From Antitrichia curtipendula (lineage: Eukaryota; Streptophyta; Bryopsida; Hypnales; Leucodontaceae), in NCBI GenBank assembly GCA_951230915.1, contig OX579634.1, forward strand, positions 52,527,570-52,591,569: a stretch of 64,000 nt of DNA, written 5' to 3'. The translations under genes were made by a program, and so were the position numbers. This document shows positions 15,192 through 59,769 of this stretch, piece after piece. The first letter of the stretch is position 1. Each line of letters starts with the position of its first letter. Under the pieces are notes generated by a model. The model did not search any database, had not been told where the DNA came from, and saw only the letters and a list, made by a program, of their open reading frames with translations.

Positions 15192-15221
15192 CAGGTCGCG
15201 CAGAACAACCTTGTTCGCTGG
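15192..15221. repeat. Terminal inverted repeat of the left giant element and its target-site copy
   Basis: 15213 back to 15192 reads CAAGGTTGTTCTGCGCGACC on the minus strand. 15214-15221 (ttcgctgg) is the expected 8-bp target copy; its partner lies beyond the left edge. The target is coding sequence of the FCP1-like exon, just after its DDSP motif. Confidence 0.75.
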
Positions 15222-31558: not shown

Positions 31559-31571
31559 CAGGGTTGTTTTG
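31551..31571. repeat. Target-site copy and left terminal inverted repeat, right element
   Basis: 31551-31558 is the target copy ccaaggag. 31559-31571 is the TIR CAGGGTTGTTTTG, followed by GCGACCTGGCGACATCGCGA, which already carries the GGCGAC core. Confidence 0.88.
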
Positions 31572-31764
31572 CGCGACCTGGCGACATCGCGACAAACAGA
31601 CGTCACGCGACATCCAGTAGACCCTTCGCGACGTCACATAAAGTCAAATTTACCTTTGATTTTTTAAAAAACTACCCCCCTTTTACCTAAGCCACGTGGA
31701 TGCCATGTGGCATCCGCGTGGCACATTTTAGGGCACATGCAGGTGTGACGTGGACGGGCGACTT

Positions 31765-32343
31765 CGATTTATGGTGACCTCAGATAGGGCGAATTCGTGT
31801 TAGGGCGACCTCAGGTAGGGCGACCTCAGGTAGGGCGACCTCAGGTAGGGCGACTTCGTGTAAGGGCGACTTTGTGTAAGGGCAAGCGCGGATAGGAGAA
31901 TGCGGGTGTAGGTGACCGCGGGTAGGAGAACACATGTATGGGAGAATGCGGGTAAGGGAGACCGCGGCTGAGGCGACCTCGGGTGAATGCTCGGACCCGC
32001 GGTTGCCTTCTCTTGGACCCGAAGTCGCCCTCTTCGACCTGAAGTCGCCTCTCCTGGACCCGCAGTCGCCCATATTGGACCCGAAGTCGCCCCCTCTTGG
32101 ACCCGCGGCCTCTCAAGCTGGACCCGAAGTCGCCCAGAAGACATGCACAAAGAAGCGTACCCGTACTCGCCCACCTATATATCCATGCGCCCGTACGGTC
32201 TTCTTCACCTTCATTCTTCACTTTGGCTCTCTGTCTTGTATCCTTTATTGGCTGCATGCGTGATCCTTGTGTTGAATGTTTACTTCTTACTTTTCATTCA
32301 TCCCAGCTTGTGTTATCGCAAGTTCTCGACGTACAAAGATTCC
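31765..32343 (+). promoter_or_regulatory. Left-terminal GGCGAC array and gene C promoter, right copy
   Basis: There are about 20 units of 16-20 bases with GGCGAC cores (31765-32140), several in exact tandem (gacctcaggtagggc, four times). A TATATAT box at 32176-32182 and a pyrimidine-rich leader to ATG 32344 follow. Array differences from the left copy end at 32151. Confidence 0.7.
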
Positions 32344-34818
32344 ATGGCTACCGGAGGCAATAGTGAGGGGTCACTTCCTCTCCCTCAGACAACGCGCACT
32401 CCTGGTTGCCTCAGCAAGGCTGCCAAAAATAGGACTCGGAAGCGCAAGGGCACCATTCATAAGAAGCGGTTACATGTATTGAATAGTGAAAATCACTATG
32501 CTTTTAAAGGGTGGAACGAGGAGCTAGAGCCATGGACAATGCAGACCTGCAAAGACTACATCGAATGGTGTCACATCAGCAAGATGTTTCCGACGTGGCG
32601 CCATTATCACAACCGTCACACTAACAAGGCAAATCTGAAGCATTGTGAAAATGCAGACTTCACTCAAAGGTGTATAGAATTGTGGCAGGCTATTTATAAA
32701 ACCCCCAACGTAGACAGGAATGAAGTACCTCTCTTCATCGCTAGAGGAGCATATGCTGAGGTGGCCCTACAAAAGGAGGTCGATTGGAGCACAGTCAAGG
32801 AAACTACATACGTGGCACGTCCAACAAGCGGATCAATACCAAGAGGTGTTATGGCTTTTCCAGACGGGGGACTTGGGCCTATTCGAAGTGCTCCTAGAAA
32901 CAGAATAGCTACTGAAGTTCACAGTGATGATTCCAAAGAAGATCCTGATTCTGACGGTACGCGGAAGCCAAAGATAGGACAAGACAAAGAAGACATTGTG
33001 GGCCCCGCCAAAGTTCAGATTGAAAATGACAAGGACCGTTCAGCGTCACAAGGTCAAAGAGTGAAAAACCTCCCGAAGGTGCGACGTTCAACCACGCGAA
33101 TTGGGCCAAGATCAACTTTAGCAGCAGGTCCGCATCCACCGTTGTCAGCACAAGATGCCAACAACGTCTTCGAATTTGGTCCAAGCGATGACATGCCCAT
33201 GGAAGCAGTTGTCCGTGCTTCCATCCCTCAATCTAGAGTGACTCGAACTGACAACGCTATGACTCTAGCTAAGGCTCTCGACCTCCTAAAGACCAAGGAC
33301 ATTAACATTGCTTTGCTGCAAAGCAATGTCAGGAAGTTGCAATCTCAGTGTGCACACAAAAATTGTCTCCTCTCTCAACAATCTATAGAACTGCAACGCC
33401 TCAGAGACAAAGTACAAGACACTTTTACTTTGTCGGACATGGATGACGCCTTTCTTGAGCCGGATTCACATCATTTGGATAAGGTTGTAGGCGACCTCAC
33501 CGATGATTTGCTTCACCATTCTCCTGTTGCCAAGCGTGCCAAGCATTCTTCAATGACTCCAAATGCGCTTCTTACGGGAATTCTGGAAGATACTACCACA
33601 AATGATCTCCAGGAGACCCAAGATTCACTCTCGTTTCCTGTGATTCCTCATTCCGTACAGTCGCAATCGAGATTGGACCTCGAAAAAGAAAATAGAATGC
33701 TTCGAGATCAGTTGTCACAGTTGGAGGCCACATACTATCATTGGAAGGTCGCGTGCATCCTCTCAGTGGACAGAGCACAACAAGTTGCAAAGGAATTGGA
33801 GAAAATTTCACGAAACTTTGTTGCACAAGAGCCTAAACGAGAGTGCGGTCTCACATCATGGGCATTGATGGAGGACATGTTCCCCACTAACATGGACTTG
33901 GCGGAAAAGACCGACACTGATTGGACAGAAAATGGTTGGGACCACAAAAAACAAATGTCCAGCCATATTGAAGTGCAGGAAAAAATGCTACTGTGGCCAC
34001 ATCCTGCACCCTTTGTTTTGGACCACACCAAATGTTCCATATGTCTAGAGCAATTTGGTCCTGAAGGTGGCTGGGCACTTGGATCATGTACACATGTGTA
34101 CCATCCTTAGTGTCTCATCACGCACTGTTTGATTAAACGTCGTTGCGTTTTGTGTTCAGCACCATTCCATGATCGTTTGTACACCATGTTCAACTTGACG
34201 ACTTACATGCCTCCTTCTTGGGAACACAGCAGTGATACCACAGAAGACACCAGAATGTGGGGACGAGACTTGCTCTGGAGCTGGAGACAAGGAAACCATG
34301 ATTTGGAAAAGGGAGTTGTTAGTTCCCAACTGAATTGGAAAACAGATCCGGAAGAAATTGCCAGAGTTGGAGTCAAGTTGATGGAAAAAGGGCCACAAGG
34401 CGAAGGGAGGAGGACATTCTTCTACCAGTGCCTTGGTGGATATTTCAATAAGACCTCCGGAACCTTCAATTGGGGTCCTCATCCACAACGACACCGTTGG
34501 AATTTTCAAGGACTGAGGGTGGCCAATCAAGATGCAACGGCCTCCATGGATGAATTGGACAGCATGTCTTACTTAGACTCTGTATACGGGCCTTATTACC
34601 AAACTCAAGCCCTCGACTATCTGTTGGAAGAACACTCTCCAAAGACCACAAAGACCCTCGAAGCTCTAATGAATTCTAACGTCCTGGAATCCATTTTGAA
34701 GGCGGACGGACCAGCTTCACGAACTCGTGCCAAGCGTAAGCTTGGTGTTGGGGAGTCATCCACCTACGAACGTGGCGAAGGAAGTGGTTCTCAAAACGAC
34801 ACAGATGTTATCATCTAA
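32344..34818 (+). CDS. Gene C: WCHI-domain RING-finger protein with in-frame amber codon, right copy
   Basis: It is the same as 12017-14491 (-) in every residue of both open parts. WCHI domain at about residues 25-140, coiled coil near 390-430 and 490-540, RING start (CSIC) near 562. TAG at 34108-34110, then an open frame to TAA 34816-34818. The stop codon lies where Gln or another residue would sit between the second zinc-ligand pair and the last Cys pair. A truncated product would lack a complete RING. Whether the stop is read through, edited or simply fatal cannot be told from DNA. Context after the stop is TGT CTC, not the known strong readthrough CAR YYA. Confidence 0.75.
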
Positions 34819-37800: not shown

Positions 37801-38132
37801 AACTCCACAGTCCTTCAAGGATTACAATTCATATCTATAAAAGTTATCTTCATTTTGTTATCAAAATTCTTTTTTAACACAAACATTACAACTCAAGTTT
37901 CATAGATCCTTTGAAATTTAGAGCTCTACACTTCTCATAAAATGTCTTCACCCCCATATGGGGCAACATGCCAATTAAGAAGTTTTCATATACACGCCAT
38001 AAAAAAGAAATATAAACACTTTTGAATGAGAAATTATTATATTTATTTATTTACTCAAGGTAACTGATAGTCTAACATTCCAAACAAGGGTGGGCAAAAT
38101 GTAAAATTCCCACTCTGCTCCTATGAGTACCA
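34819..38132. other. AT-rich spacer between genes C and B, right copy
   Basis: It is the reverse complement of 8702-12016, with a 1-bp difference near 35741 (gtgccggg against the left copy's gtgcccggg on the same strand). No gene is seen; it contains the same spacer-module pieces. Confidence 0.65.
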
Positions 38133-39574
38133 CTAAGTGCTAAAAAAAAAGTCACTTTCAATGGAACCCGACCCCATTGCGTCCACCTTTGTCTCTGATT
38201 TTCCTATGGTACTCATCTGAAACTTCCGCCATGCCTTGTGAAAACGAAATTCAGATTCCAAATGGCGTAGCGATTCTTGTACCGCCATTGCATTCATGGA
38301 GTGTAGCTTCACCAATGAACAAAGCCTTGCCACTTCTTCAGCATTGGTACTTGGCTCATATTCAACAGCGGCGATGCAATATTCTTTTTTTTTTTTCTTT
38401 ATTGCTACATCCAAGTCTCGCCTTTCATTCTCGTAAATCCAACGTTCACGTTCCAGGAGATCGCGCTTTGATTGCCATACCACATACTCGTCCATGTAGT
38501 GCACCCTTCCACTTTCACGCTGCCTGAAATAAAAATTGCGATTTTTTTCAAATCCTTCAAGTACTTGTCATTTTCTTGGATGCTTTTCGTTACTCCCTCC
38601 AACTGCTTCTTCAAATCATCTACGACAATGGGACCCACTTGTACTGAGAGTTCATTCTCATTTAATTGACGGAGTTCGTTCATCTTCTCACGCAAAGCAG
38701 ATCTTACACTTGCCGCCCTGACACTCAACAACTCTATGTCGTCTTCCAAATCGCTTCCATCAACGCTGCGGTTCCGCTCTAGAACAACATGTTCCACTTC
38801 CATAGGCCCTGCATCTTCCATGCCTTGCACATCAACGTGGGATTCTGTGATGGGCTCGTCAACCTTCATTTTTCCCTTCCTATCCATTTCCAAACCCAAA
38901 GCCTTGTTCATGACTTCCATGAGAAGGTCGTCATCGTCACTGTGGAAAGAATATCCATCGTATTCATGGGTGTGTTCATCTTCGCTAGAAGTCGCCGACC
39001 ACACTACATTTTCATCAGAAATGAAAAACTTCCCAGGCTTTGCCGATGTCACCGATTCCTTCACATCCGGCGCTACATCTGCCCAAGGAATACTTGATTC
39101 TCCTGGATGGGTCCCGATCGAAAGATCCTTAATGCTTGACCAATCCACCTCCTTCAATACAACTTCAACATACACCATTCTTGCAAGAAAGAAAGAAAAA
39201 TTGTCGTTTCGATACGTTTGTAGGCCTTTATAGAGTTCCTTCCACACCTCGCAGCATCTTTCTTGGAAGGCTTTGTTCTTGCAATATGCAAGATTTACCT
39301 TGTTCGACTTCAAGTGGAACTTGTGACGATACAACGGAAATAACTTGTCGATGTGGCACCAGTCCACATATTTCTGAACCGTCTTATAAGTCCAAGGCGC
39401 AGGTTCATCTCTCCAACCCTTGAAAGCCTTAATCTTCGGATGGATCAAGATGGCCTTGCGCTTCTTGTGGATTTTTCCTTTCTTTTTTCGATCCTTGCCT
39501 CGAAGCGCCTTGGACTCTTTCCCAGCTTCTAATCTCGGTACAGCAGGCGGCAAAGGTTGGGCCTCCTCTTCCAT
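38133..39574 (-). CDS. Gene B: WCHI-domain coiled-coil protein with -1 frameshift, right copy
   Basis: It has the same sequence as 7260-8701, including the A7 tract (T7 on the plus strand) where the frame breaks. Start ATG at 39574. The shared defect means that the frameshift predates the duplication of the element, that the two copies were homogenised, that the gene is spliced, or that expression tolerates slippage at A7. Confidence 0.7.
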
Positions 39575-39850
39575 CGCAATACACAGGAATATTCCTTCCC
39601 CTGATGCCAATATGATCAAAATACGCCCTCCAAAACTCCGACCCCTAGCTCACGAGCAAGCACTCAGCCACTTCAAGGCGGATGAGAGACAATGCGCAAA
39701 GCCAGGAGTGGAGAACGCGGGTGATGGGCGACCTCTTATATACCCGATGTCGCCTGGGAGCGTGTACGGAGGGCGACTACGGGTCCGAAGGCAGGGGAGG
39801 GCGACTGCGGGTACCAGGCGACCGCGTGTCCAGGGCGACCGCAGTGGCCC
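39575..39850 (-). promoter_or_regulatory. Gene B promoter cassette and array, right copy
   Basis: This is the inverse of 6985-7259: TATATAA at 39736-39742 on the minus strand, the shared leader downstream of it and five to six GGCGACC units upstream to 39850. Confidence 0.78.
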
Positions 39851-40809: not shown

Positions 40810-42393
40810 TTACAAAATTGAGTCACGGAAAACTACTTCCGGGGGCTTCATGTACCACGGTTTATCCATGAGCAACTTTGTAACCTTAGTACATGTTGGT
40901 CTCTTCTTTGGATTAGGGTTAGTGAGTTCACCCAACTTGATGGCAAAGTACATGGATCCCTTGCGCCTCTTGAATAAGTCCGTATCGTATTTGACCATAT
41001 TAAGAAGATTCATCCATTTGGTCAACTTTCCAATAGAATACGAGTCTGATTGCACTGTATATTTATATTGTGATTGCATAATCTCTAGGCTCGTACTGGA
41101 ATTTCGTGGCCCAAACGTATATAACAACTTTGGAGCCACCCACCAACGGCTTCGTAAGGATTGCTGCTTCTTCTCCTCAGAATCATATCCATAATGTGAA
41201 GGAACTCCTTCATCAAAACGACTTGAAATTCCGAAATCACAAATCCCGATGTTGATTACTTCATCCGAATAATCGGGGAAATGCAGCAGTATGTTTTGAG
41301 GGTTTAGGTCATTGTGTAGCACCAAAGACTCGTGCATGAGATGTGTCACATACACTAAAGCCCATGCCAACTTCGCCTTGTGCCTTCGGAACAAGCTAAG
41401 ATGTTTTTGATTGTCCTCTATAAGTTTCCACACCCGCTTCATTTCATGCCAGTCAACGCTCTCTGACACCTTCTCATCCAATGTTCGCATTTCAAGCCAT
41501 GTACCGCCATTCCACCACAATGTGTACGCTTCCATAGTTTTGGCATGAATACCAAAAAACTTAATAATGCCAGGATGGTTTACGGGGCATGCCAAGGCCT
41601 CTACGGATCGTTGCTCCCTTGCTTCACGCATGTTCTTTGACTTTGGCACTTTCCCAGCAAAAGCAACGTATGGCGGGATTGTTTGCATCCCTTCAGTGCG
41701 CACCTTGCGCACCATTCCATACCCACCTTGACGGTCAAATCCAGTGAGGGCAATTACTTTTGCCTGAGGAGAGATCCATGTGACAGTGGAGCCAGCCTCT
41801 CGTGCAAAACCCGCCTTCAATCCGTCCGTTTTCCACTTCATACCCCTCACATGATTCTTCAAAAGTTTCTTCACAACTTCATGCCACCACGCCATCTTTT
41901 CATGGAATTCTTTGGCTTCATCATCTCCTGCAAATCCCGGCACTTCCGGTCGCATCTGTAGCATTATTTCCTTGGTGTTGAATATGCATGTCTTTACAGT
42001 GTTCTCAATCCACAATTCGTATTGGAAAAAATACGTCTCCTCCACGTCTCCAAAATCTTGCGATGCTCTACACTTGCTTAAAATTCTTGCCTCCAAATCA
42101 GCAGTCAATTTGAAGATGCCGTGGGATGGGTCCCTTAGGTAATTGGCCTTCAAGAACTGTGTAGTTTTTCCCGCATACCAAGACAGGCAACCCTCAAATG
42201 CATAGTTTGCATAATTGGAAGGAGGATAGGTTGAATCCTTGTCATGTGCCGTTATGATTTTCTTCTTCCTCTTCGTTTGCCCTTCACTCCCTGTTGCCTC
42301 ACTAACAGGTATCTGCAGAGCAAACAATGCCGCATCATCTAAATCAAAAATGGATTTCCATGTTGAATTGCTGCCTTTCTGTGGATTAGCCAT
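40810..42393 (-). CDS. Gene A: protein-kinase-like cargo protein (527 aa), right copy
   Basis: It is identical to 4441-6024 except for one residue near position 494 (Asn here, Asp on the left). Glycine loop, candidate Lys, HND catalytic loop and DFG are all present, and the frame is intact, so this is one of the two best-preserved genes of the element. Function beyond a kinase fold is unknown. Confidence 0.8.
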   Translation of the reverse strand: MANPQKGSNSTWKSIFDLDDAALFALQIPVSEATGSEGQTKRKKKIITAHDKDSTYPPSNYANYAFEGCLSWYAGKTTQFLKANYLRDPSHGIFKLTADLEARILSKCRASQDFGDVEETYFFQYELWIENTVKTCIFNTKEIMLQMRPEVPGFAGDDEAKEFHEKMAWWHEVVKKLLKNHVRGMKWKTDGLKAGFAREAGSTVTWISPQAKVIALTGFDRQGGYGMVRKVRTEGMQTIPPYVAFAGKVPKSKNMREAREQRSVEALACPVNHPGIIKFFGIHAKTMEAYTLWWNGGTWLEMRTLDEKVSESVDWHEMKRVWKLIEDNQKHLSLFRRHKAKLAWALVYVTHLMHESLVLHNDLNPQNILLHFPDYSDEVINIGICDFGISSRFDEGVPSHYGYDSEEKKQQSLRSRWWVAPKLLYTFGPRNSSTSLEIMQSQYKYTVQSDSYSIGKLTKWMNLLNMVKYDTDLFKRRKGSMYFAIKLGELTNPNPKKRPTCTKVTKLLMDKPWYMKPPEVVFRDSIL

Positions 42394-42760
42394 TGTGGTC
42401 GGAAAAAATACTCACGTTGCTTTCTTCAAGTTTGTAGTTGAAAGAAGCAAAAACTCCCCCCCTCTACCAACTCACACCCCCTGGCCCACGAGCACGCATT
42501 CAGCCACTTTGAGGCGGATGAAAGGTAGTGCGCAAGGCCAGGAGTGGAGAATGCGGATTGGGGCGACTTCTTAAGTATTCGCAGTCCCCCTGGGGCGACT
42601 GCGGGTTCCAAGAAAGGGCGACCGCGGAACCAAGGCGACCGCAGAACTTTAGGCGACCGTGGGTCCTCGCCGACCGCGGAACTTAGGCGACTGCGGGTGC
42701 AGGCGACCGCGGAACCTGGCCGACCGCGGGTCTTGGGCGACCGCGGGTTTTCTCCCCGTC
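42394..42760 (-). promoter_or_regulatory. Gene A promoter and GGCGAC array, right copy
   Basis: The shared leader (about 42480-42560) and a degenerate TATA position are followed upstream by about ten cccgcggtcgcc-type units (42590-42755), one 17-bp unit more than in the left copy. Confidence 0.7.
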
Positions 42761-46202: not shown

Positions 46203-49200
46203 ATGATGGATGCTAACACAAAAAAAATTAAGAAGAAAGGAGATAGCCAACATAGAAACCGTCGCATCCTTCTTAATCCAGGGGCTGTGGCATTTCAAGG
46301 TTGGGATCGAATCAACGGAGATTGGACGATGGTGATTTGCAAGAAGTTTGTGGAGTGGTGCCATATTGACAAGCTATTCCCTCTTCATCGACACAAATTG
46401 CATCTAAAGATGAATGCTGCAAATCTACATTACTGCAAGGATGTCGCATTTGTGCAACGTTGTATCGAAGTGCATCGACATTTGTACAACACACGAACAG
46501 TGGTCAGGAGCGAGGTCCCGTTGTTCATTTATCAAATTGTGTATGCAGAGCTAGTCTTGGCGCAAACGGTAGATTGGACTACCGTCAAGGCATCGAAGCT
46601 TATCACCATTCCAAGAGCCAAAGACATTCCGAGGGCGGGTCCCTCCGCTAATCCATGGGACGGGCTAGGAAAGAAGAAGTTGATCCAAACAAGGGTGGCG
46701 GATGAAGAATACGTGTGGTCAACTCATGCGAGTTCAGCTAGCGAAGAAAGCTCGGATGAAGAACATACCTCGGGCGTTCCTATGGATGCAATGGATGTTA
46801 CCCCACTTCAGGTTCATCATCCCGAAAACGATGAAGTATTGCAACATGTGTTTGCATGCATCCAAATAGAAGCACTTGATAGACTGGATGGAGAGATCGA
46901 AACAGAGGAGGAGGAGGTGGTGCCGCCTTTGTTGGCATTGCCTTGGGTGAAAGAAGTACCAGCAATGGAAGAACACGTTGAAGGTTCCTATCGTCGAGAT
47001 ACCACGAAAGCCAAAAAACAGTTTTACAAAGAGAAACTTCAACAACTTCTTGAAGATTTGGCAAGGACAGAGGAAGCATGTCAAAATTACGTTAAGGTCA
47101 GTCCCCGCCGATTCAGGCCTTCTGAAGGCATGGTTAGGTGGCGGAATTAGCCATGCAGGCCGATTCTGCCAAGGGAGGGCCGATTCTGTCATGGGAACTT
47201 CTCCAGGAACGCGGGGAACTGCCCTTAACGCTAGGGAACGATCCGCATGCTGCGGATTCTGCAGCAGCACGCGGCCACAGGTCTCGCCCTCCGGGCTCGC
47301 CCAGTGCCGCTTGCTGCTGCAGAATCCGCAGCATGCGGACCGTTCTCTAGTACAAAAAGAAGACTGTGGAAACTTTTGATGGTGAATATGTGTCCACCCT
47401 CCAAGCAAAAATTGAAAGTGGGCAAACCCGTTTGGCCGTGCAAGCTAGAGAGATAACAGACCTGGAGGCATTTTACCGGGAATTTTCCGGTGGTCCAGAC
47501 GGAGGGCTGTGAGTGTTTTAATCTCCCCCCTTCAGAGGTAAAACGTGCACACGGATTCTAGCGACATGAAAAGTAATTTCTAGGGGAAGAAATTAAACGT
47601 AGTGTTCTTTGGCCTTCCAAGCAATGGACACTTTGTTATGTTGATTTTACCTAATTTAAATGCTTCAAAACACACTAATAGTTAAGAAATAAAGGTTGTT
47701 AAAGGTTGATTAAATGCGATTAAACTTCTAGCTAACTAAAATTCTACCTAATGTAAATCAAAGAATACAATTTGCCCTTTCCGAAATGGTAAAGCAAGCT
47801 GGATTCTGATATTCCTAGCAAACGTTATGCGTGGATGAAATCCGGCCTTAATTCTATCCTAAAAACTTCATCCGTCAATTAAAAATAGCAAAATAATGTA
47901 AAATAAATCTAAATTTCAGAATTAAAAGGTTGATTAAATTAACTAATGGAATTTTGAGAAAAACCTAATTTTAACCTATTTTCGGAATTTTCATCCAAAT
48001 TTAGGTCAAATCTTCATCCACACTTTTATCTTTTCAAATTAAAGTAATTTTAAAAGTAAGAGGTGGATTTGGAATCTTCAAAAGATTCTCTAAAAGATTA
48101 TGGTTTCCAAAGATCCCATAGTTGTTCCTTGAGAATATTCCTAATTGTTCTTTAATTAAGCCTAATTCTAAGTTATTATTCTAAACTTAGTGATTTTCTA
48201 TAGTTTTATGGTTTTTTATGGGTAAAGTGATAAATTACTTCTTATAATGGTAAAAAGTAAGAATTTTGGACTTCTAGGTAAAAACTTATGAATGAATGAA
48301 AATTCCCCTTAGTTGGATGGAATTCGGTTTCAAATAAGTTTTATGTAGAATTTAAGGGATAAATTAGGGTTTAATCTCCCCAATTATTCTAATATTTTCT
48401 AGATTCTTAAATTATGTTAGATTTCTTTTGAAATTCCTTTGGATGAAATTACTATTTCGGTTTCCAAATTCACTCAAAGTTAATCTAATTATTACTTTCA
48501 CGATTATAGTTAAGTTTTTTTAAGGTTTTCCAATGATTTTAAATTTTAACTAGCTATCGGATTTCTAATTTTGTTAATTTTAGTTTTCTAATCTAATTTT
48601 TAAAGAATGAAAGCAAAAGAGAAAACAAAAGAAAAGTTTGGAAATTCATACCTCAGTATCGAGAATGTCGATCGTCCCATCATCGCAAAACACCATCATA
48701 ATCGTCTCCTCGAAATTCTCCATTGCCTTTCATGTATTTGGAAGAAATCTTAGTATTATTGTTTCTAAACCTATCTAAAAAGTCCAAGTTTGTTAGTTTT
48801 GGCAATTTAAAACTAATCCTTTGATTTTAGGAAATTAATAATAAATTTAATTCATTTTTCCCAAGTTTCAATGAATAGTAGTTTATTTGATTGCCAATTG
48901 TTTAATAGTTATTTTGTTAAATATTCCAAGATATTAGTTGGTGTTTGTTTGTATCTATTTGGCTTATTAGGCCTAATAAAACAAAACTCAAACAACAAAA
49001 CAACAACTAATTTGTCTTTGGAATCCTAATTAATAACTAAAATCAACCGAATGAATAGTAATCTAATAAAATAAGCTAAAATAATCAAAACAAATCTATC
49101 GATGAATAATAAAAGGAATTTTGCAATCCAAACAATCCAAACTTCAATAGTAAGATTCTAACGAAAAGAATAGAATAATCAAAACAATCCAAATTTCAGT

Positions 49201-52200
49201 AGTAAGATACTAATGAAAAGAATAGAATAATCAAAACAATCCAACTTTCAATAGTAAGATACTAACGAAAAGAATAGAATAATCAAAACAATTCCAAAAT
49301 TCAATAGTAAGATACTAACCTTAGATCCTTTATTCTTCGTCCTTCCTTGTTAACCTTCTTATGATCTCGCTTTCTTCCACTTCTTATGATGTTGTTGTTT
49401 GAATTCTTGGCGATGGCGGAGAGAGAATTTGAGAGGTTCAAGAACCGAGGCGAATGTTAGTTCAAAATCCTTAGTGTTCAAATTTTCCAAAATTTGCAAA
49501 AAAGTTGGTAACGTGGCAACAACCACCTATGTCTTGGGATTTAGTTTTGAGGTTAAGCCACCAAATAGCTTTTGAATCATGAGTTCATAACAATTCTTAC
49601 TGAAAATTTTGGAAAAAATCCAGAATTGTGCTGGATTGTATTTTCAAACCACCGCTGCCCTGACTCTGAAATTTCGTTACCACAGGAGGTCGTCTCCTTC
49701 CGTTTTCTCCTCCTTGCTGTCAGTTTTCAGCCCCTGTCTGGTCCCGTCAGGTCGGGATCTCGAGCAGGGTCATTGGGGTCTCGTCCCGTCTCCTTTGTTG
49801 TCGTGTCGTCCGTGTCCGCCGTCAGGTCGTCAGGTCGGGGTCTCGGCAGGGTCGTTGGGGTCTCGTCCCGTCCTGCTGCTAGTCGAAACGTTCCCAGTCT
49901 TTGGCCCCCAGCGTTCCCTTGCTCTCGTCTCCACAGGCCCTTACTGATCCTTACTAAAACTGAAATTTCGACACCCTTAATCAAACTGAAATTGACTTTT
50001 AAAGAACAAAAATCAATCTCTTCCTTTTAAAAAAACAACAACAACACTAGAATATAATCAAGAATTGTTAATTGTAAAACACAAAACAAGGATAAGCTTA
50101 ATTTTTGTGAACAATATCTAAAACTTAAATGAATGATAATCAAAATAACCAACTTGGGAGTAACATAAGCAATAAATGACAAATTGGAAGCAAAATACCT
50201 CCACCACGTGTCCAAAACAAAGGGGAAATGAAACAACAAACTTTGAACTTTAAATAAGGTTCAAAAGAACCTTATTTTGTGATTCCAAATTAAAGCTTCG
50301 CCGTACGAGGTAAATATGAGTTTTAAATGGCAAATCTTAACTTTCAAAAAGTCAAAGCTTCGCCGTGCGGGGGCAACCCCAGGTCAAATCGAACAATTTT
50401 AAGTTTCAAGTATCCGTTTCCAGGGTTCAAAAAGTCAAAGCTTTGCCGTGCGGGAGCAACCCCAGGACAAATGGAGCTTTTTAAGCCAATTTAAGTATTT
50501 CGAAAGTTAGATTCTAAAGGAGGTACACATGAAAGTGTTTAACCGAACATTAGAAACGAATCTTCCGAAATTTCAAGTCAAAGTCAATCAATTAACTGCT
50601 AAAGGAGGTACACATGAAAGTGTTTAACCGAACATTAGCAATTAAACCTCAAATTCCGTTATACAACGAACTTTGAGTAGGAAATTAGTCTAAAATACTT
50701 TTGGCAAGGTCAAGCCCCGCCGCTTTAAGTATTTAGTACCAAATGCGTTCACGTGCTACAATGGATTAGTATTCAAGTAATCTTAAGCAAAGAATCAAAG
50801 TTTTGGGGCTTTCAACCTCCAAATTCAAAAGAAAGCAATAGGTTTTGAAGGGACCCTCTAGTCCTTCAAAACACAAGAGAATTAGCGGAAAATGCAAAGA
50901 AATAGAAGGAATTAGCCAATTTTTGGCTTAAAGTGCTCCAACAACGTGTTGGTAGCACAACAGAGCAACAATAAGGAAATGGAAATAAGGTTTGGTCTGA
51001 CAACGTGTCAGTACCAAAGAGAAAAGAAAATGAGAGTGAGGGTATAAGAATGAGGGTACCGACAACCTCGAGGGGAGGCCTTTTATACTCGAGCCAAGCC
51101 CTCCCCGGTAAGTTGTCGGTTAAAAAACGTTTAATTAACTATCTAACTAAATTCTAAACTACTATGAGATATTTTGCATGTAATCTTTGTTTAATAGGAA
51201 GGAAGGTCCCTAAGCAAGTTCCTTGAAGGCTTTAATTAGCCTTGAAATCTTGCCTAAATCAAATCCTTGATTGTCCCCAAAGATTTTATGAAAATAACCC
51301 TAACTAACCTAGATATTTTGCAATTTAATCCTAGGTCAAATCCAAATATTCTTAGTTTAATCTAAATTGGCTTTTAAAGGAAAGATTTGACATCTTAACT
51401 AAATCCAATCTTCGATTTTCACCAAGATATTTTGTTAATTAACCTCGAATTACTACAAATTACTCTAAAAAAGTCAAACTAAGAGCTGACCCTATCTATC
51501 TTTTAGGGAAAAACTCCAATTTGAAAACCGATTGCGCCATCGCGTTCAGAAGACCCCAATTAGTCTAGGGGACCCCCTACCTCCTTCTTCCAGGCTGTAA
51601 ATATTTGTAAAAACCACTAACGGTAATTCTAGAGAAAAGTCAAAATCCCAACTAATGGAATTTGAGTTTCCCGAGAAAACTAATTGGCTAGGGTTGCTTG
51701 GAAGGTTCGTGGTAGTAAGAAAACATTCCTTGTTTGCGACATTCGGACACCGCTAGCTCCTGGCTCGCCGGTCAACTCGCCGTCGTTTTGTAAATTCTTG
51801 TTAAATTTGATGTTGATGCCGATTCGGGTACTTTTGACTATCAGAAAGTCTTTAAACTTGACAGGTCGCTCATTTAATACATAAAACTCTAATCTAATTT
51901 TTAGTGAGATTTTACCGCACTCTGGGTAATTTCTAAGAAATTACCATCAGTTTTAAAGGCGGTTGACTTCCCATGGAGTCATCGTGGAGTTTTGTAAAAT
52001 CCCGAAACTTTTGGGCAATCTTTTGGAAAGTGTCCAAAGGCCAAGGGCAAAACCAAACCTCCAATAAGGATGCTAATTTTAGCAATTCCTTAATAATTTC
52101 CGCCCGGGGGGGAAATTATTCTGGTACCGGGGTTGTTGTGGATGATTAGCTCCGCTGTTGATCTCTTGGCATGCTTTTACCCTAAAAGCACCTTTCTGTA

Positions 52201-53002
52201 AGCTCCAATCACCTCGCCTTTCTTCTACTTTGCATTCTGATTCATATTCTTCAACATTTATAGGTCTTCATGTAACTAATCCGTATTCTACATGAATTGG
52301 ATCGAGATACATCTAAACCTTGATATGGACTCTTGTACTTTAGCCAGGATGTCACATGTATTCACATGTCAAGTGTTACATGGACAAGACACTAGAACTG
52401 GCTAACTCTTACTTCATCACATCTCTCTAATACGTTAATATGGACTCTAAGACACTGAACTTAAGACATAAACATAGAAAAGCATAGTATTTTGTGCTTT
52501 CCATGAATTTAGGAAGGTTCCTCACTAATCTGGTAGGGACTTCTACCAAACTCCTCTCAACTACTAATTCATGCTATTTTGCGTGAATTAACACTAAAAA
52601 CTAACAATAAATCGCGAAAAATAAATCCAGAGCTTCAAGTGCTAACTTGAGGGCTCACAAGGGCCTAGCACTGGCGGCAGTGAGGAAGCCAAGGCTCGGC
52701 TTTCCAAAATTATAGAAGATTGCAGGATGGAAGAAGATCGGTACATTACTGCAAAGAGAAGTGTGGAGGAAGGACGGTCAGGGATAATTCACCTGACCCA
52801 AATCGGGGATCGGGCCCCTCTTGATCGTGTCTCCGAATTCAATGCCCAAGATGTTGATAAGCTATATGGGACACCGCAAGCAAAAGTAGCCGACTTGAAG
52901 AAGAAGTTAGCTACTTGTCTCTCGTTGGAAGAGAATTTGCAACGAAGCGTGCATCAGTTGAACCAACACATTGATTTATCCAAATCGTGGAGAAAATTTT
53001 AG
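46203..53002 (+). CDS. Gene D: WCHI-domain coiled-coil protein, split by an intron and a 5.15-kb insertion
   Basis: ATG at 46203 (MMDANTKK); the open frame upstream has only non-ATG starts. Exon 1 is 46203-47096 (298 codons): basic KIKKKGDSQH stretch, AFQGW, EWCHIDKLFP, spaced His/Cys, VDWTTVKA, then an acidic linker and coiled coil. Intron 47097-47350 (AAG|GTCAGT ... CTCTAG|TAC), phase 0. Exon 2 is 47351-47507 continued at 52665-53002 after removing the inserted element and its AGGGC duplicate; together they give 165 codons with no stop. The C-terminus ends SKSWRKF, matching the HKAWRKF motif of gene B. Length would be 462 residues. As present in the window the gene is interrupted. Confidence 0.72.
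47236..47345. repeat. 32-bp hairpin inside the gene D intron
   Basis: Arms 47236-47267 and 47314-47345 pair at 31 of 32 positions around a 46-base loop. They include gaacg-tccgcatgctgcgg and attctgcagcag. The right arm ends four bases before the splice acceptor. The intron is much more GC-rich than the spacers. It could be a small foldback element that supplied the intron, or a structured intron. Confidence 0.8.
49149..49320. repeat. 52-bp tandem repeat inside the TG...CA element
   Basis: The marker agtaagat begins at 49149, 49201, 49253 and 49306. The unit includes gaaaagaatagaataatcaa. Confidence 0.85.
50280..50645. repeat. Dispersed duplications inside the TG...CA element
   Basis: aaagcttcgccgt(a/g)cg occurs near 50293, 50347 and 50437, the last two followed by g-gcaaccccagg. 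A second unit, ctaaaggaggtacacatgaa, occurs near 50513 and 50598. Related aaagctttgccgt sequence appears on the minus strand at 62580-62900. Confidence 0.7.
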
Positions 53003-55129
53003 AGGCAAGGTTACTTTAAGAGCTTCGGGCAACGTAACATCTCATGTCTGAAGAGGGTAGAGTACGAGGTGATGGTCGAGGTGGAATCCGAGAAAAAGAA
53101 AAGAGAAGAGAAAGACAAGAAGGATATTGCATGATTTTGATTAGTTGCAATTGTTGTAGGACTATATGCTTTTGTAAACATGTATATATACCCGCGGATT
53201 ATGTATTTGATATTCAAGATTTAATGCAAATTTGTCCATTTCAAATCTTGATTCTCTATTGTTGAGGGCTCTTGGATATAAGGCTCTAGGAAATAGGGCT
53301 CTTGTACATTAGAGGTTGGAAAAAAATCACATCAGAATTTAAATTACAAAATTTGTGGACTACAATTTCATTACACATAAATTGATTGTGGTTCAACATG
53401 TTATGCCATTTAAAACCGACCATCTTTAAAGAGGCCACTTCTTCAAGTAGAACACGGGAAAAAAAAATTAAAAGATATCAAATTGGTTTAAAATTTGAAC
53501 ATGGTTATGATCAAACATTGTAATCTTCCAACTCATAAGTGATGTTGTTATGTTTTGTTTTGCCCTTACACGTGGAGCATGTATCTTTCTTTTTAGAATT
53601 TGAAATTACTATGCATTTTTTAGGAAATAATGAAGAAATTCCATATCTCATACAGAATATACTCAAAATATCTTACATTTTCACCATAGAATTATATTAT
53701 GATTAATAACATCATTATGTACACCGAAGTTGACGTGCCATGCTAAAATGGGAGACATAACAAACAATTCTTATAGGCCCAAAGTTCATATTGCTATAAA
53801 ATAGTAAAAATTAGCATTATTTCAAATATTCCAATTGGAATAAAAAATGTATGTAACAAGCGTGCCAAGCATTAGGTAGACTCAAGATTAAGAAATGCCA
53901 TTTGAATTCATGAAATTCACAGCAGTAAAAAACTACAAGAAATGCCCAAAATTCACTTTAAGGGTGATTTGTGGATTAACCCCTAAAGCCCCGAGGTCTT
54001 TTTTCCATCAAAACACACTTAAAACTGCCACTTCTATTGCAAAGAGCAAAAAACTATAAAAATTGTTTTTTTTTGCATATCTAACCGTAGGATCTTATAC
54101 TAGACTAGTATAAAAATGTATGCAAGAAATTTCAGAAACTTTGACCACATAGATTGCAAGATATTTGCATTCAAAGTGAAGAAAACAAGTTTTTTTGCAC
54201 CTTACTTGACTAGATTTATGGGCTTTGAACCTATTTAACTTAAATTTTTTGTATTGCTGATTTTGATTTTCTAAGATTATATATTGAATAATTCAGTTGA
54301 GAATCTAGGAAAAAAAATTCAAGAAAAAAACACTAAATTTTCACTCATTAAAAAATTGTTAAATAGAAGTAGGTTCAAGATTGAAGGAATAACTAAATCG
54401 TTAATAGCTCGAAGGCAAAATTGAAATACGATAATTCGAACGGTGAGATTGTTCTAGCATGCAAATTCAACTTTGTCTAACAATTTTTTTCTGAAAATGG
54501 AAAAAAATTCCATTAAAAAATGAATCCTAAAAGTTATTTTTTCAAGAAGATGCTTAGATTGCCCGAAAAACTAAGATTGTCCATAACTTTTTCATTTTTA
54601 GTCCAAATAGAATGAATCAAAGCTTCAAATGTACACAAAAAGACATAGATTTTGGAAAAAATATTTAAAAAATTTATTTTGACTTTTTGTGATTTTTTTG
54701 TGTTGCCCGCCAAACTCTATTTTTGGCATAACTTTTTCTCTCGGGCACCATTTGAAATAAAAATTATATATCCACAAAGCTCTTGCAGAACTGCACAACC
54801 TCAAGAAATCCCAAAAACATTCTTTACAAATTGAGGTCACAAGAACCTACCCGGACCCAAATTGTCCCCCAAGGGGACAAACGATCCTTTAGGGTTTAAG
54901 CATCTTCTTCCCTAGAAAGGTCAATAGCACCATATTGTAGTAAGTTGCAATACTATTTATCACAAATATACTAAAGTGGCCTCCAAAAAAATGAATTAGA
55001 TCAATAAACATTTTTTCCATCCTACATTGATAGGTGAAGTCATCCAGTGGACACCTAACGTCCACAAGCGGCCCTAAAAAGAAAAAAAAATTGCACACAT
55101 GCTTACCCATGGACCATGGTCGCATTATA
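53003..55129. other. AT-rich spacer between gene D and the transposase
   Basis: No gene is seen. 53970-54900 is a diverged copy of the spacer module at 10.0-11.25 kb: cccctaaagccccgagg, ccgtaggatcttata, ggtgagattgttctagca, tctcgggcaccatttgaaat and gtcccccaaggggac follow in the same order. This ties the transposase half of the element to its cargo half. Confidence 0.6.
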
Positions 55130-55532
55130 CTGGAGTCGCGGTCGCCCCAGAAAAGGACGTGCAGTCGCCTGGCGGGCACCCGAAGTCGCCCTTTATGGGA
55201 CCCGCAGTCGCCCTACTGGACCCACGGTCGTCCCCTCAGCCTGTACCCGAGGTCGCCTCTGTACCCGAGGTCGCCCTCACCCACAACCCCTCTTGGACTA
55301 TAAAGCCTGAAGGGCAGCCATTGCCTCTCATCTTGCTCCGGTGATAAAGCTCTTGTCTTGAATCCTCTAAAGAGGCTTCCTACGGATGTTTAGGTTCTTT
55401 GGAGGGCAACAATCTAGCTTTGAGAGGTTCATAGGACCACTCTTGGCGGGTGGCTTTGTCATTACTTCTTTTGATTGGTCCGGTTTTTTCGATAAAGTAA
55501 TTTTTCTGTGAGACCCATTGCGGATCTGCAAG
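55130..55532 (+). promoter_or_regulatory. Transposase upstream array and TATA box
   Basis: Eight or so GGCGAC-core units (gtcgccc, cccgaggtcgcc) lie at 55135-55280, followed by TATAAA at 55299-55304 and a leader of about 230 bases to the ATG at 55533. The leader does not clearly match the A/B/D cassette beyond a short gcctctcatcttgc. Confidence 0.7.
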
Positions 55533-58500
55533 ATGGCTGGCCGAGGTGGTGGGAGGACGACGCCTGCTAGCGATACACATAGGGCCACAAAGGAGTGGGA
55601 CCCTTGACTCATAATATGCACTGAAGGTGATGCCTCCTTGTATCCGAAGAAATGCAGATTCTATGGGTGGAGCACAGTATTTGTACGGAAGAGGGCATTG
55701 ACTCACTTTGGATTTGGCGCCACGCGTAGACATGATCTCTGTCAACGTATCCCTCCAAACATATTGGAAAAGTTTAGGAACTGTATGGGGGTTGTTCCAA
55801 AATTCATGAGCTACGAAGAAATGTACGATGCGCCGATTGCACTCAATGCAGATGATGGTGTTGTTGGGCCCCTTGTTGGGCCTGAAGTGGAGGTGGATTT
55901 TGAAGGGTCCAGGGACCCTAGTCGTATGAATGAACCATTGACTCCTAATCCAGACTCAGTAGATTCTACTCCAGCGATAGTGAAGAGAAGGAGGAATGTG
56001 CCTTTCATTTCCCGTCAAAGAAGTATGGATGAAGCATTACAATTGGCCCTCCGACAGAAGTTAGATAAAATGTGGGCTTCCTTTTTTTATGAAGCCAACA
56101 TAGCCTTTAACGTCGTGCAACATCCTGTGTTTATAAATGCAGTGAAGGAAACCGTTATAGCTGGATTTGTGTATCAATCGCCATCATACAATGCAGTGCG
56201 CATGAAAATGATAGATGTGAAAAAGGCAGCTGTAGGAACATGGTCTCCCAGCAGACGAGGAACTCTATTGACCAGTATGGAGCGACTATTTGTTTAGATG
56301 GATGGTCTGATACCAACACTCGTCCTTTGTTGAATATGATGCTTGTATGTCCTGCTGGGGATGTTTTTTTGGGCTCGGTGGATAGCACAGGGGTGAGGAA
56401 GGACATTGCCTACACCACAGATATTATGGCTCAATACATAGACCAGGTTGGACCAGCAAACATTGTTCAACTATGTACGGACAATGCCGCAGTAATGACA
56501 GGGGCCATGACAAGGTTGCAAGAAATGTACCCTCACATGTATAAACAAGGGTGTGCAGCACACATTTTGGATTTATTTTTGGAAGACTGGAGAAAGGAAA
56601 GGAAAGTGACTGAATTGGTGGAGGACTGTAGGAAAATTTGCACGTTCATCAAAAAATATCAGCTCACTTTGACTCTGTTTTGGAAATATTCACCGCACAA
56701 GGTGTTGAGACTCCCTGCCTTAATGCGGTTTGTTTGCAACTTCCTCATGGTAGATTGTCTCGTGGATTGCAAGCAAGCATTGCACAACGTGATTTATGAT
56801 GAGATGTATGCGCCTTTTGAGATGAGTTTGTTTCAGCAGAAGAATGGATACATAGTTCAAGGACGAGCCGTGCGTGCAAGACAAAACATTCTTTCAAAAG
56901 CGTTCTGGGTGAAATGTGAGAATTTTCTGCACATGGTACAGCCTGTGCTCGTTGCTCTTCGAGTGTTTGATGGAAAGATCCCGGCAATGCCCAAAGCTTT
57001 GATGGTGATGCAGAGCTTGAAAGAGCACGTGTACTCGTTGAGGAATGAGCCTTTTTTTTTAGACCCCGCAATTGCAGACAAGTACAAGAAGCAGTTTGAC
57101 GCTCGTTGGAAATTGATGCTCACAGATTTGCACTATGCAGGTGCACTATTGAACCCATATTTTCTTGATATAGCAACCATTCAAAACAATGGCGAGGCCA
57201 AATCTGCCTTGAATCGAGTCATACGAAAACTCAGCGAGCCATTGGGAGTGTCACCCATGGAGGCAATGAGTGAGCTTGTGGAATTCAAAGAAAAGACAGG
57301 TCCATTTGACCCTTTGATGGAGGCTCCTGATATCACTCAAGGTACACTACTACCCCATCAGTGGTGGAACCATGTGGGTGGTAATGCTCTCCCGAAAATT
57401 GCAAAGAGAATTCTATCTTTGACATGCTCAATATCTTCATGTGAAAGGAATTGGAGCATGTATTCGTTTGTACACAGTAAAGTGCGAAATTGCCTGGCCA
57501 CATCTAAGGCGGAGGCATTGGTGTATATTTACGCCAACAACAAGCTCAAACGTGAGAAACGTGGACACAATCCTGCCCTTTTTTACGATAAGTACCTAAT
57601 GGATGGAGATATTGAAGAAGAGAACGAGGAGGCATTGTCTTCGGGTGACGAAGATGACGTGGTTTCTAGAGTTAGTTGGGCTGCCGATAATCGTATGGAG
57701 GTAGAAGAGCGCTTGCATGAAAATCCTTGGATTGGAATGATGCTTGCTGCTGTTGACCTCCCCCCAAGACGACGTTACGTCCACACTTTTACGGATGGTA
57801 ATGATGAGAACAATTCTGGTGAAGAGGAGCCCCTACGTACACCAGAACGGAATCGCGTCTTTACATGGGATGAAGCTGCAACCGCATATTCACCGCTACC
57901 GAGGGAAAGAACTTTTCATGACAACAACGAAGGCGTACAAAATCCAGTGCTTGCACTAGAAGAGCTTGCAAGATCTCCAGTACTAGCACATCTGTCTTCA
58001 AGCATGCCAATAAATCTTCGGAGCGCTGCACGAGTTATTGTGGAAAGTGAAAGAGAAGAAGAGGCAGTACACATTGATGAGGTTGTACGTGAGGGGTGCC
58101 CAATTCCTGTAGTAGTGAATGCGCGTACCACCCGAATAACAGAAACGGTGGAGTACGATTCAGATGTGCCTCTACAAGCTATTCTGAATTTGAATCATAA
58201 TGCATCTTTAAATCGAGGAGCAAGTCAGAGCGTGGCTACGGTCACAAGGTCTATTCCAACCCATCTGCCAAGGCCGCCGGTGCATCGAGGTCCACCACGG
58301 ACCATTGATGAGGAAGTCCATGCCTCAGCTTCGCAACCCACTCAACCTTCATCAACGTTAGCCCCAGGGGCATCATCATTGGGCACGCGTAGACACAACA
58401 GTGGAGGAAAGAAGCATATTAGGAGGGTTCACGAGGTGGTCCATAGAAATCCTAAACGTCAAAATCAAGTTGTCCAACAGTTCAGCATGGGGGCGGAATG

Positions 58501-58807
58501 TTCCAATCAAAATGTCGGTCAATCAAGTGGAGGAGGGCGACACCGTACACCCAACACTGATGGAACCACGGACGTGTTGAGGTGCACGAAATGTTTGGTG
58601 CAAACAGAGGGCGTTGCCGGTGTAGATACTGAAGTGCGGAATCTGAATTTAGAGGTAGAACAAGAGGTACGAAACATACCAGTGCCAAGAGAAGAAGACG
58701 AGAACAAGAGCTCGACCGACAACAAGAATAGGGACGAGTCGCATGAAGATACAGACCCCAACGCCGATGAAGTGTCAAATGATGACGACTTTGATCCTGG
58801 TGAATAG
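55533..58807 (+). pseudogene. hAT transposase (BED, DUF659, hAT-C), decayed
   Basis: Start MAGRGGGRTT at 55533. TGA at 55605-55607 interrupts the N-terminus. The BED-type finger reads KKCRFYGW, with Tyr where the second zinc Cys is expected, then ALTHFGFG. The frame shifts by one near 56215-56240 (a missing base, possibly in the A5 tract). From 56240 the frame is open for 855 codons: CLDGWSD (first catalytic Asp), LCTDNAAVM (second Asp), CAAHILDLFLEDW, and the hAT-C dimerisation segment with SSCERNWSMYSFVHSKVRN (catalytic Glu). A long acidic and Ser/Pro-rich tail follows. Catalytic residues are intact, so decay is confined to the first 235 residues. The element is the expected substrate. Confidence 0.85.
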
Positions 58808-59289
58808 ATGTGGAGATAGTACAGTACTATTGTAAGGATTCAACATACGTTTTTTTGTATCGAAAATTTGTAGATGAAGATTATAATAGATTAATAGTTT
58901 ATGTGTGACTTTTTTGTACATCCTCATATTAAAGTATGTGAGGCTGAGAAACATATAGGAAGGTTTGAATTTTTTTGGAGTGTATAGATTTTCACAAGCA
59001 TTAGAATGGTGACCATAACAAAGTAGTAGGAAGTGCAATGCAATTACAACTTCATTTGTATATCCCGGACCTGACCCATATATATATGAGTTATTAATAT
59101 AATTATAATAATTATTGTGGACTTGTATTGGATTTTGTGCATTCATTCAAATGAGAGGAATTGAATTCTACATTTCCTGAGGTATATTATTCAAAATTGC
59201 AAATTGTATAAGCCGTTATGAATAAGCGGCCAATGTAATGCTTTTTAAGCATGTAATTTTAAGAAGATTTTAATAGATGTCATGTTCAA
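58808..59289. other. AT-rich 3' flank of the transposase
   Basis: It contains a short palindromic tatatatatgag tract near 59079 and nothing else that I recognise. Confidence 0.5.
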
Positions 59290-59580
59290 TTACAGCAGAG
59301 GCCACCCGCGGTCGCCGCCTGAATCCCTCCAACCGCTGTCGCCTTTGGACCCGTAGTCGCCCTAGACACGCAGCCGCAGTCGTTCAGACACTGGGGACCC
59401 GAAGTCGCCCAACCCATCCCCCACCGCGGTCGCCCATAGACATTGGACCCGAAGTCGCCATGCAGACCCGAAGTCGCCCCACTTATAGAAGCCGCAGTCG
59501 CCTTGGTTCTTGGACCCGCGGTCGCCCTACCCAGATCCGCACTCGCCCTAACCCGCAGTCGCCCAAGCTGACGTGGTTCT
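59290..59580. repeat. Right-terminal GGCGAC array
   Basis: Fourteen or so units of the type cccg(a/c)(a/g)gtcgcc lie 180-470 bases inside the right terminus. The orientation is inverted relative to the left-terminal array, as expected if the motif is a transposase-binding or end-recognition site. No gene lies downstream in this element. Confidence 0.8.
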
Positions 59581-59748
59581 GTCTTTCCACGTCACTGCGG
59601 ACAACCAGACACGTAGGACAAATCCATTTACCATGGGATAAAAAACTTCAAAACCCTAAAGTTTTTTGCGACGCATTTGTCGCCTATATTCGACACATGT
59701 CATATACAACGCGTCTAATACGTCACCGAAACCCGAAAACCCGTCCGA

Positions 59749-59769
59749 CAAGACAACCCTGCGAAGGAG
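59749..59769. repeat. Right terminal inverted repeat and target-site copy
   Basis: 59749-59761 is the inverse of CAGGGTTGTCTTG. 59762-59769 (cgaaggag) is the target copy, one base different from ccaaggag at 31551-31558. Confidence 0.85.

Follow-up and report, generated by a model that had tools for sequence, protein, structure and literature searches.

A giant five-gene hAT transposon family with GTCGCC arrays at its ends and upstream of its genes in Antitrichia curtipendula

hAT elements are generally regarded as small, one-gene transposons. The locus studied here raises the question of whether 28.2 kb holding five genes can be a single hAT element and, if so, what the four genes besides the transposase do in it. 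We analyzed a window of 64,000 nucleotides of Antitrichia curtipendula (GCA_951230915.1, contig OX579634.1, positions 52,527,570 to 52,591,569, forward strand), in which a preliminary description had recognized a cargo-carrying hAT-like transposon. We found that 31559..59761 belongs to a giant hAT family of a 400-Mb genome. In our reading, to which we give a probability of about 0.6, the giant hAT is a self-contained autonomous unit whose five genes are under shared GTCGCC control and in which genes A to D are accessory.

Ends of the element and inserts in the window copy

The element was bounded by the following features.

31551..31558, no strand: left target-site duplication CCAAGGAG, pairing with the right flank at 7/8 bases
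31559..31571, plus strand: left terminal inverted repeat (TIR), matching the right TIR at 12/13 bases
59749..59761, minus strand: right TIR, matching the left TIR at 12/13 bases
59762..59769, no strand: right target-site duplication CGAAGGAG, 7/8 identical to CCAAGGAG

Thus, the base-exact bounds proposed earlier were reproduced from both the TIRs and the 8-bp flanks. The TIRs showed little similarity further in and are short, within the hAT range, quoted as 5-27 bp in the available text of PMC12506042. The flank switched at the position of base 31559 in eight left ends compared, the window's own included. When the flanks were fused with a single copy of the duplication, the interrupted copia frame was restored, as had been claimed; two stops occur further downstream in the copia frame itself.

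The shortest copy that was traversed fully is 22.5 kb. The window copy contains three inserts (260, 5152 and 278 bp), each missing at those places in four other full copies, and the window holds a second, partial copy, which went unmentioned in the preliminary description.

47091..47350, no strand: 260-bp insert in gene D, holding an inverted repeat, missing from the other full copies
47508..52659, no strand: nested element of 5152 bp in gene D, with ends TGTGAG...CTCACA
54783..55060, no strand: 278-bp stretch missing from four other full copies
1112..15214, minus strand: second copy, inverted, left half only, with genes A, B and C

The sequence AGGGC, which flanks the nested element on either side, reads as a 5-bp duplication. 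Relatives of the nested element were found within the copy at C5:34.5 Mb and at the left end of the copy at C4:30.13 Mb (the latter by eye, from its end). The remainder of the element had no match in window positions 1-1112 or in the adjoining 11 kb to the left.

The five genes and their coding state

Five genes were located in the window copy, with stops counted by projection on a reference frame, which is blind to frameshifts, and frameshifts taken from the lists of open reading frames (ORFs).

32344..34818, plus strand: gene A, shared N-domain and RING-H2 pattern; one in-frame stop
38133..39574, minus strand: gene B, paralogue of A and D; frame-shifted (ORFs 38405-39649 and 38133-38567)
40810..42393, minus strand: gene C, protein kinase with a helical N-terminal domain; without in-frame stop
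46206..53131, plus strand: gene D, paralogue of A and B; one in-frame stop and inserts 47091-47350 and 47508-52659
55533..58807, plus strand: gene E, hAT transposase with DUF659 and a hAT dimerisation domain; frame-shifted between ORFs 55608-56297 and 56111-58807, and one in-frame stop

Gene E is, judging from its encoded domains, the transposase of the element. Of the BED/DUF659/hAT-C architecture proposed for it, Pfam supported DUF659 (PF04937, E 1.4e-32) and the hAT dimerisation domain (PF05699, E 2.5e-7), whereas no BED zinc finger was called in the N-terminus at E<=1, where a C-x2-C...H...C arrangement is visible by eye only. Together with the 8-bp duplication and the short TIRs, the dimerisation domain places the element among hATs. 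We found 66 homologues of gene E. Eight carried an organism name, and seven of these were from flowering plants at 26-29% identity; the eighth, at 61% identity, was a 'Bacilli bacterium' metagenome bin that is probably misbinned.

The kinase reported among the cargo genes was confirmed by PF00069 (E 3.3e-13) on the near-identical gene C of the second copy at 4423-6021. Further, the AF2 model of gene C (mean pLDDT 77) matched PDB kinases. There were 25 homologues; relatives down to ~30% identity, several of them fragments, kept a YTLWWN motif and the kinase lysine. A search by peptide pattern gave one stretch in viral contigs and 13 in prokaryote genomes, none of which was confirmed as a relative.

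The claim that genes A, B and D are paralogous was borne out: the other two are 29% and 22% identical to gene D, and 51 columns are invariant across the three sequences. Their common domain of ~100 aa appears to be novel and is followed in D by predicted helical regions. A Pfam search called no family for this domain, a PDB fold search gave 0 matches at E<=0.001 with a poor AF2 model (pLDDT 54), and a PDB sequence search returned just six weak coiled-coil-like or unrelated matches (E 0.2-0.6), none credible. In gene A, the RING-H2 pattern C-x2-C-x14-C-x1-H-x2-H-x2-C-x10-C-x2-C was recognized by eye in another copy, and zf-RING_11 was matched at E 8e-6 with 25.9 bits, below the Pfam cut-off of 27. 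Gene D was stop-free over 507 aa in two other copies.

Five copies, the window's included, were traversed end to end. None of them had all five frames open, which counts against our reading as regards present activity. Substitutions were counted with copy w2 excluded. Private substitutions, found in a single copy each, look neutral: the 453 nonsynonymous and 203 synonymous changes compare with expectations of 460 and 196. Shared substitutions numbered 63:41 nonsynonymous to synonymous, against 74.7:29.3 expected (p 0.009, changes treated as independent), and this shortfall of nonsynonymous changes gives only moderate support for selection. Pairwise dN/dS values of 0.39-0.66 were not accepted as proof of selection, because the private changes look neutral under the context-matched expectation.

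GTCGCC arrays and the role of genes A to D

A GTCGCC array lies upstream of every one of the five genes, in the sense orientation for four of them, and at both ends of the element.

About 31770..32140, no strand: left subterminal GTCGCC/GGCGAC array in both orientations, which is also the upstream region of gene A
39727..39839, minus strand: array upstream of gene B, 5 sense sites
42562..42741, minus strand: array upstream of gene C, 8 sense sites
44420..44734, plus strand: internal minisatellite with a unit of ~114 bp containing GTCGCC, variable in copy number
45637..46032, plus strand: array upstream of gene D, 9 sense sites
55141..55275, plus strand: array upstream of gene E, 6 sense sites
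About 59290..59590, plus strand: right subterminal array

Across the five copies, the 900 bp upstream of genes B to E contained 129 sense sites vs 9 antisense, where first-order shuffles predict 0.05-0.23 per gene and strand. Upstream of gene A, in the left end, 26 sense and 35 antisense sites were counted. The neighbouring 16.2 kb of DNA had three sites. In the copy at C6:0.83 Mb, gene C is preceded by one lone motif. Inspection of one copy by eye revealed TATA-like boxes, with a weak one for gene C, and B, C and D have one motif just downstream of the box.

The occurrence of the motif at both ends and before each of the five genes points to a self-contained mobile gene set, not a chance pile-up. 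From these arrays we infer co-regulation of the five genes. The gene E transposase would most likely cut at the TIRs and bind the adjoining GTCGCC arrays, much as the Ac transposase does with its AAACGG repeats, and an end-binding protein would probably also set the expression of the whole element. TnpA of En/Spm (CACTA) is an accessory DNA-binding protein that acts on subterminal repeats and on the promoter of the element itself. By analogy, A, B and D would most likely be DNA-binding or regulatory accessory proteins encoded by the element, although En/Spm, with TnpA and TnpD, differs from the giant hAT family in superfamily and ends. Kinase C would most likely modify A/B/D or the transposase. 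Such a motif offers a testable model of gene coordination in a large transposon.

A more specific version of this reading, which we put forward tentatively and with the odds somewhat against it, is an autonomous mobile regulon. Here a new accessory family A/B/D (one member RING-type) and a dedicated kinase would read and control one motif that serves as the dock of the transposase and the promoter switch of every gene. The ~114-bp minisatellite occupies all 10 kb examined in two other copies; arrays grown into such 10-kb satellites could titrate the regulator.

Alternatively, A to D could be host genes captured passively by a giant hAT, which hitch-hike in it while the arrays are promoter repeats spread by duplication. 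Since the core promoters of B, C and D share homology (82% over 96 bp between B and C), their arrays could be alike by descent alone; this alternative is also consistent with the neutral appearance of private substitutions and with the accessory genes known in other giant transposons (available text of PMC12477816). However, the motif also lies at both ends and precedes genes A and E, and it was retained in two short members that lack the genes. Outside the motif, the only blastn match between the promoters of A and E and those of B-D was one of 17 bp. Further, all five genes were present in 5/5 copies examined end to end, each gene reads as a single long ORF, and the kinase relatives conserve the positions described above. 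We consider passive capture unlikely. The preliminary description had spoken of a multi-gene cargo. Four non-transposase genes do travel with the element, but we prefer to call them accessory genes, because a motif array is common to the ends and to all five upstream regions.

Copies in the genome and known systems

Genome-wide pattern scans located 174 left ends and 242 right ends, with 0 in controls. Both ends were examined at 13 independent sites, and an 8-bp duplication was present at 12 (8 exact, 4 at 7/8) and absent at one. With equal base use assumed, the chance of a duplication of at least 7/8 at 12/13 sites is ~1e-40. The copy at C4:30.13 Mb was omitted from this tally because an insert had removed its left TIR. 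Since 12 independent duplications bracket the same end pair, the giant hAT is mobile as a single unit of 22-28 kb.

The other four full copies measured 22.5, 24.0, 24.5 and 26.4 kb; in all five traversed copies the same five genes were colinear and in the same order, and open frames add up to roughly half of the unit. The four other copies exceed 20 kb and have extra coding capacity, as giant transposons do, the >20 kb threshold having been set for the internal coding region in the available text of PMC6431247. It had been proposed that further full-length copies with these genes and distinct 8-bp duplications would confirm the element, and that cargo and transposase ending independently would refute it; such copies were found, with the same ends, and in the five traversed the cargo and transposase never ended independently. 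The idea of a giant hAT with a multi-gene load thus held.

Using the first 100 left and the first 100 right ends listed, we joined each end to its closest partner at a distance of up to 60 kb. Of 57 such pairs, 21 were spaced at 22-30 kb and 24 at <20 kb, with 17/57 at 2.9-5.8 kb; under this rule the 30-60 kb class includes at least one mispair (C6:829542). One shortened member is 8.55 kb, and the copy at C5:28.74 Mb retains the left 7.5 kb only, with a 200-base assembly gap within its 30-kb stretch.

Elements of 2.9-5.8 kb with the same ends, together with the three inserts in the window copy, would suit a chance nest of smaller elements that resembles one unit. We rejected this for the family as very improbable, given the end pair duplicated at 12/13 sites, five of them traversed and colinear. 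Further, two short elements examined in full are gene-free (no ORF >151 aa), and in four more, 133-408 of 601 bases taken from the middle match these two. Both fully examined elements have 8/8 duplications and 56 and 52 motif sites; these short members have moved. They would be mobilised in trans by a putative outside source of transposase.

Copying by segmental duplication or assembly repeats instead of transposition accounts for C10:23.78 and C6:34.13 Mb, whose common flank and duplication mark one locus duplicated along with host sequence (counted jointly above), and the window's two copies have a near-identical 13-kb inverted tract in common, but for the family as a whole we rejected it as scarcely tenable, since the remaining ends had differing flanks starting at the TIR and differing 8-bp duplications.

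We found no giant hAT in the open-licence literature searched, among the matches listed. The suggested likeness to cargo-rich giants of other superfamilies is apt. The giant KDZ, EnSpm and Sola-1 elements of Ectocarpus are 10-30 kb DNA transposons that occur in high copy number, carry accessory genes and nested inserts, and have non-autonomous members, and giant KDZ and EnSpm also occur in green and red algae (available text of PMC12477816). These giants belong to transposase superfamilies other than hAT, which in the same text is a table entry of 0.05% of the Ectocarpus genome and is unnamed among the giants. ToxhAT of wheat-pathogen fungi is also a large class II transposon with cargo that was originally filed as hAT, but it is 14 kb, with TA duplications found and 74-bp TIRs cited, and is probably Tc1/Mariner according to its authors (available text of PMC12506042). 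Starships are likewise giant eukaryotic elements with cargo. Their captain is a tyrosine recombinase (PMC12506042, same text), and Pfam called no such domain (DUF3435) in the five genes; we rejected membership. Pack-TYPE membership was rejected as well, as the element has long open frames and encodes a transposase instead of carrying captured gene fragments. With a kinase, a RING-type protein and two more paralogues in a mobile unit of >20 kb, such a high-copy hAT would extend giant size and accessory genes beyond KDZ, CACTA, Sola, Starship and virus-like elements.

A close parallel is Ac/Ds of maize, a hAT system that likewise has short TIRs and duplications of 8 bp, encodes a hAT transposase, carries subterminal hexamer arrays and includes shorter relatives with the same ends, and whose Ac transposase binds AAACGG repeats (available text of PMC3260210). 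In contrast to Ac, which is 4.6 kb with one transcript, the giant hAT family has 22-28 kb and five genes, with a motif array before every gene. Like Ds relative to Ac, the short gene-free members retain the element ends and GTCGCC arrays (2/2 examined in full) and could serve as natural reporters.

Ends and movement of the giant element

The giant hAT copy at 31559-59761 is bounded by terminal inverted repeats (TIRs) that match at 12/13 bases and are flanked by CCAAGGAG and CGAAGGAG. When these flanks were joined with a single copy of the target-site duplication, the frame of a copia retrotransposon was regained; the interrupted copia frame has two stops of its own further downstream. Both the ends and the restored copia frame agreed with the preliminary description, in which this stretch was read from the sequence as one cargo-carrying 28-kb hAT-like transposon, with several smaller elements as the alternative.

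A genome search with the element ends revealed many further copies. The left-end query (first 842 bases) gave at least 43 matches in the 40 places scored of 387 first-look candidates, and the right-end query (last 492 bases) gave at least 40 in the 40 scored of 357 candidates. A genome-wide pattern scan, allowing up to three mismatches, identified 174 left ends and 242 right ends (reversed control, 0). In eight left ends, including that of the window, the flanks differed and the common sequence started at the TIR. Nearest ends were paired among the first 100 left and first 100 right places listed. Of the 57 pairs obtained, 17 spanned 2.9-5.8 kb, 7 spanned 6-20 kb, 21 spanned 22-30 kb, and 12 spanned 30-60 kb; at least one pair in the longest class is a mispair.

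For six further copies we sampled 30 kb each; for another six, a 10-kb stretch at the expected right end. Eight of these 12 left ends had a right end with an 8-bp duplication matching at 7/8 or 8/8 bases. At C8:6.72 Mb (chromosome and position), an insert, CACTA-like by eye, was met before the right end. Two left ends, both on C3, ran into satellite sequence, and for one of them a right end lay 39.5 kb away with no duplication (4/8). At C5:28.74 Mb, the left 7.5 kb alone was kept; other repeats come next, and this stretch contains an assembly gap of 200 bases. Coordinates led to three extra pairs, whose duplications matched at 7/8, 8/8, and 8/8 bases.

The copies at C6:34.13 Mb and C10:23.78 Mb were tallied as a single site because their flanks and duplications were identical (C10:23782899, 22.0 kb; C6:34136193, 8.55 kb). 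In this pair, host DNA was duplicated along with the element and one version was internally shortened.

Counting the window copy, both ends are known for 13 independent sites, and a target-site duplication is present at 12 of them (8 exact, 4 at 7/8); the probability of this by chance is approximately 1e-40, assuming equal base use. Further, five genes were colinear in five copies. These results support the earlier single-element interpretation, and we concluded that the giant element moves as a single unit.

Gene content and condition of the copies

Five copies were read through, namely the window copy and four others (22.5, 24.5, 24.0, and 26.4 kb), and all shared genes A (+), B (-), C (-), D (+), and E (+) in constant order and orientation. 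The gene set noted at the outset was thus found in four full-length copies besides that of the window. In a sixth copy (C5:34.5 Mb; 33.9 kb including inserts), A-D and the right end were present in the parts read.

Gene E encodes DUF659 and the hAT dimerisation domain (Pfam) and is the transposase. Among its 66 homologues, seven with plant names were 26-29% identical to it, and one that bears a bacterial metagenome-bin label was 61% identical. Gene C encodes a protein kinase whose N-terminal domain is helical. It had 25 homologues in a search of 5.8 billion proteins; YTLWWN and the kinase lysine were unchanged over 26 gene C-type sequences, several of which were fragments. The paralogues A, B, and D share a domain of approximately 100 residues in which conserved W, C, and H are frequent, with at least five homologues among the best 7993 candidates scored. 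Outside this domain, gene D is predicted to be helical; gene A has a RING-H2 pattern, with a zf-RING score slightly below the Pfam cut-off. Searches of Pfam, PDB sequences, and PDB folds gave no credible match for the common domain; because the structure model used was poor, a distant fold may exist.

Each of the five copies had at least one gene with an in-frame stop, and some had frameshifts as well; gene B of the window copy is frameshifted. Private substitutions appeared neutral (nonsynonymous ratio 0.95 after matching sequence context), and shared substitutions showed a nonsynonymous deficit (ratio 0.60, p 0.009). This pattern fits, with moderate confidence, genes that would have been maintained during element activity and decayed after insertion.

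GTCGCC arrays, related elements, and comparison with giant transposons

In a 7-mer count of one full copy, GTCGCCC and GGTCGCC exceeded base-composition expectation more than 40-fold. In the 900 bp before each start codon of genes B-E, GTCGCC occurred 129 times in sense versus 9 in antisense orientation across five copies (expectation, 0.05-0.23 per gene and strand). Upstream of gene A the counts were 26 and 35, because the left end is itself the gene A upstream region. Gene C of the C6:0.83-Mb copy had a single upstream site, and the adjoining 16.2 kb of the window had three. Arrays of the same kind occupied both element ends. In one copy, each gene had by eye a TATA-like box on the gene side of the array (weak in C); in B, C, and D, whose core promoters were mutually homologous, the last motif lay directly downstream of this box. 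In Ac, the transposase binds subterminal hexamers (PMC3260210). By analogy, we infer that one protein could control all five promoters. More boldly, layout and precedent suggest that the element may be a regulon that moves together with accessory regulators of its own.

A minisatellite at 44420-44734, with a unit of approximately 114 bp, also bears the motif, and it fills the whole 10 kb examined inside two other copies on C3, L030 and L032 (periods 114/228/342).

Duplications of 8/8 flanked two short elements, of 3586 and 3430 bp, that were read from end to end. Their outermost 209-438 bases were 88-93% identical to the giant element's ends, and their interiors contained motif arrays related to its minisatellite and the adjacent non-coding stretch, partly inverted. 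The two elements had 56 and 52 motif sites and a longest ORF of at most 151 aa. These are non-autonomous family members. Four elements of 4.75-5.8 kb were compared at their middles: 133-408 of 601 bases matched the two short elements, with no other match to the giant element. Four elements of 9-10 kb (L054-L057, on C3, C1, C2, and C6) had the giant element's terminal sequences and a different interior: their middles had no match to the giant element, resembled one another and the C5:28.74-Mb copy, and contained the motif in 3/4 interior pieces read. No transposase-only element was seen among the few elements read.

Published giant transposons include KDZ, EnSpm, and Sola-1 elements of Ectocarpus, many carrying additional genes, a KDZ of 31.7 kb from Chlamydomonas, and EnSpm elements from red algae (PMC12477816). 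ToxhAT, of 14 kb, shows TA duplications and was judged a probable Tc1/Mariner element (PMC12506042). In the main text of a review of giant transposons, a term search did not find hAT as a whole word (PMC6431247), and no giant hAT was present among the matches listed from open-licence papers. From its tested features, we classify the element as a hAT; set against those matches, its size, gene set, and motif layout make it a new form.

Other features in the window

1112-15214, inverted: second copy, left half only
15215-15752: open frame encoding an NLI-interacting-factor phosphatase domain (PF03031), abutted by the inverted copy
16346-20340, minus strand: long open frames
23304-24629: tandem repeat, 177-bp spacing
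26959-29673: three successive open frames with stops between, the middle one with DUF7869 (PF25273, E 2.8e-42)
47508-52659: nested element, TGTGAG...CTCACA ends, apparent 5-bp duplication

When 31559-45900 was compared with 1112-15214, 50 of 534 aligned positions differed in the outer 600 bp; the next approximately 13 kb had only 5 differences and some indels, followed by renewed divergence. The sharp edges of this near-identical tract suggest either an assembly effect or recent gene conversion between the two inverted copies, which are separated by 16 kb. The inverted copy appears to interrupt the PF03031 frame. In the minus-strand frames, 17588-19045, 18904-19581, and 19585-20340 matched no Pfam family at E<=0.1.

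The two ends of the nested element did not match each other in the window self-comparison. The C5:34.5-Mb copy contains a relative of it, and what seems to be the end of such an element lies at the left end of the C4:30.13-Mb copy.
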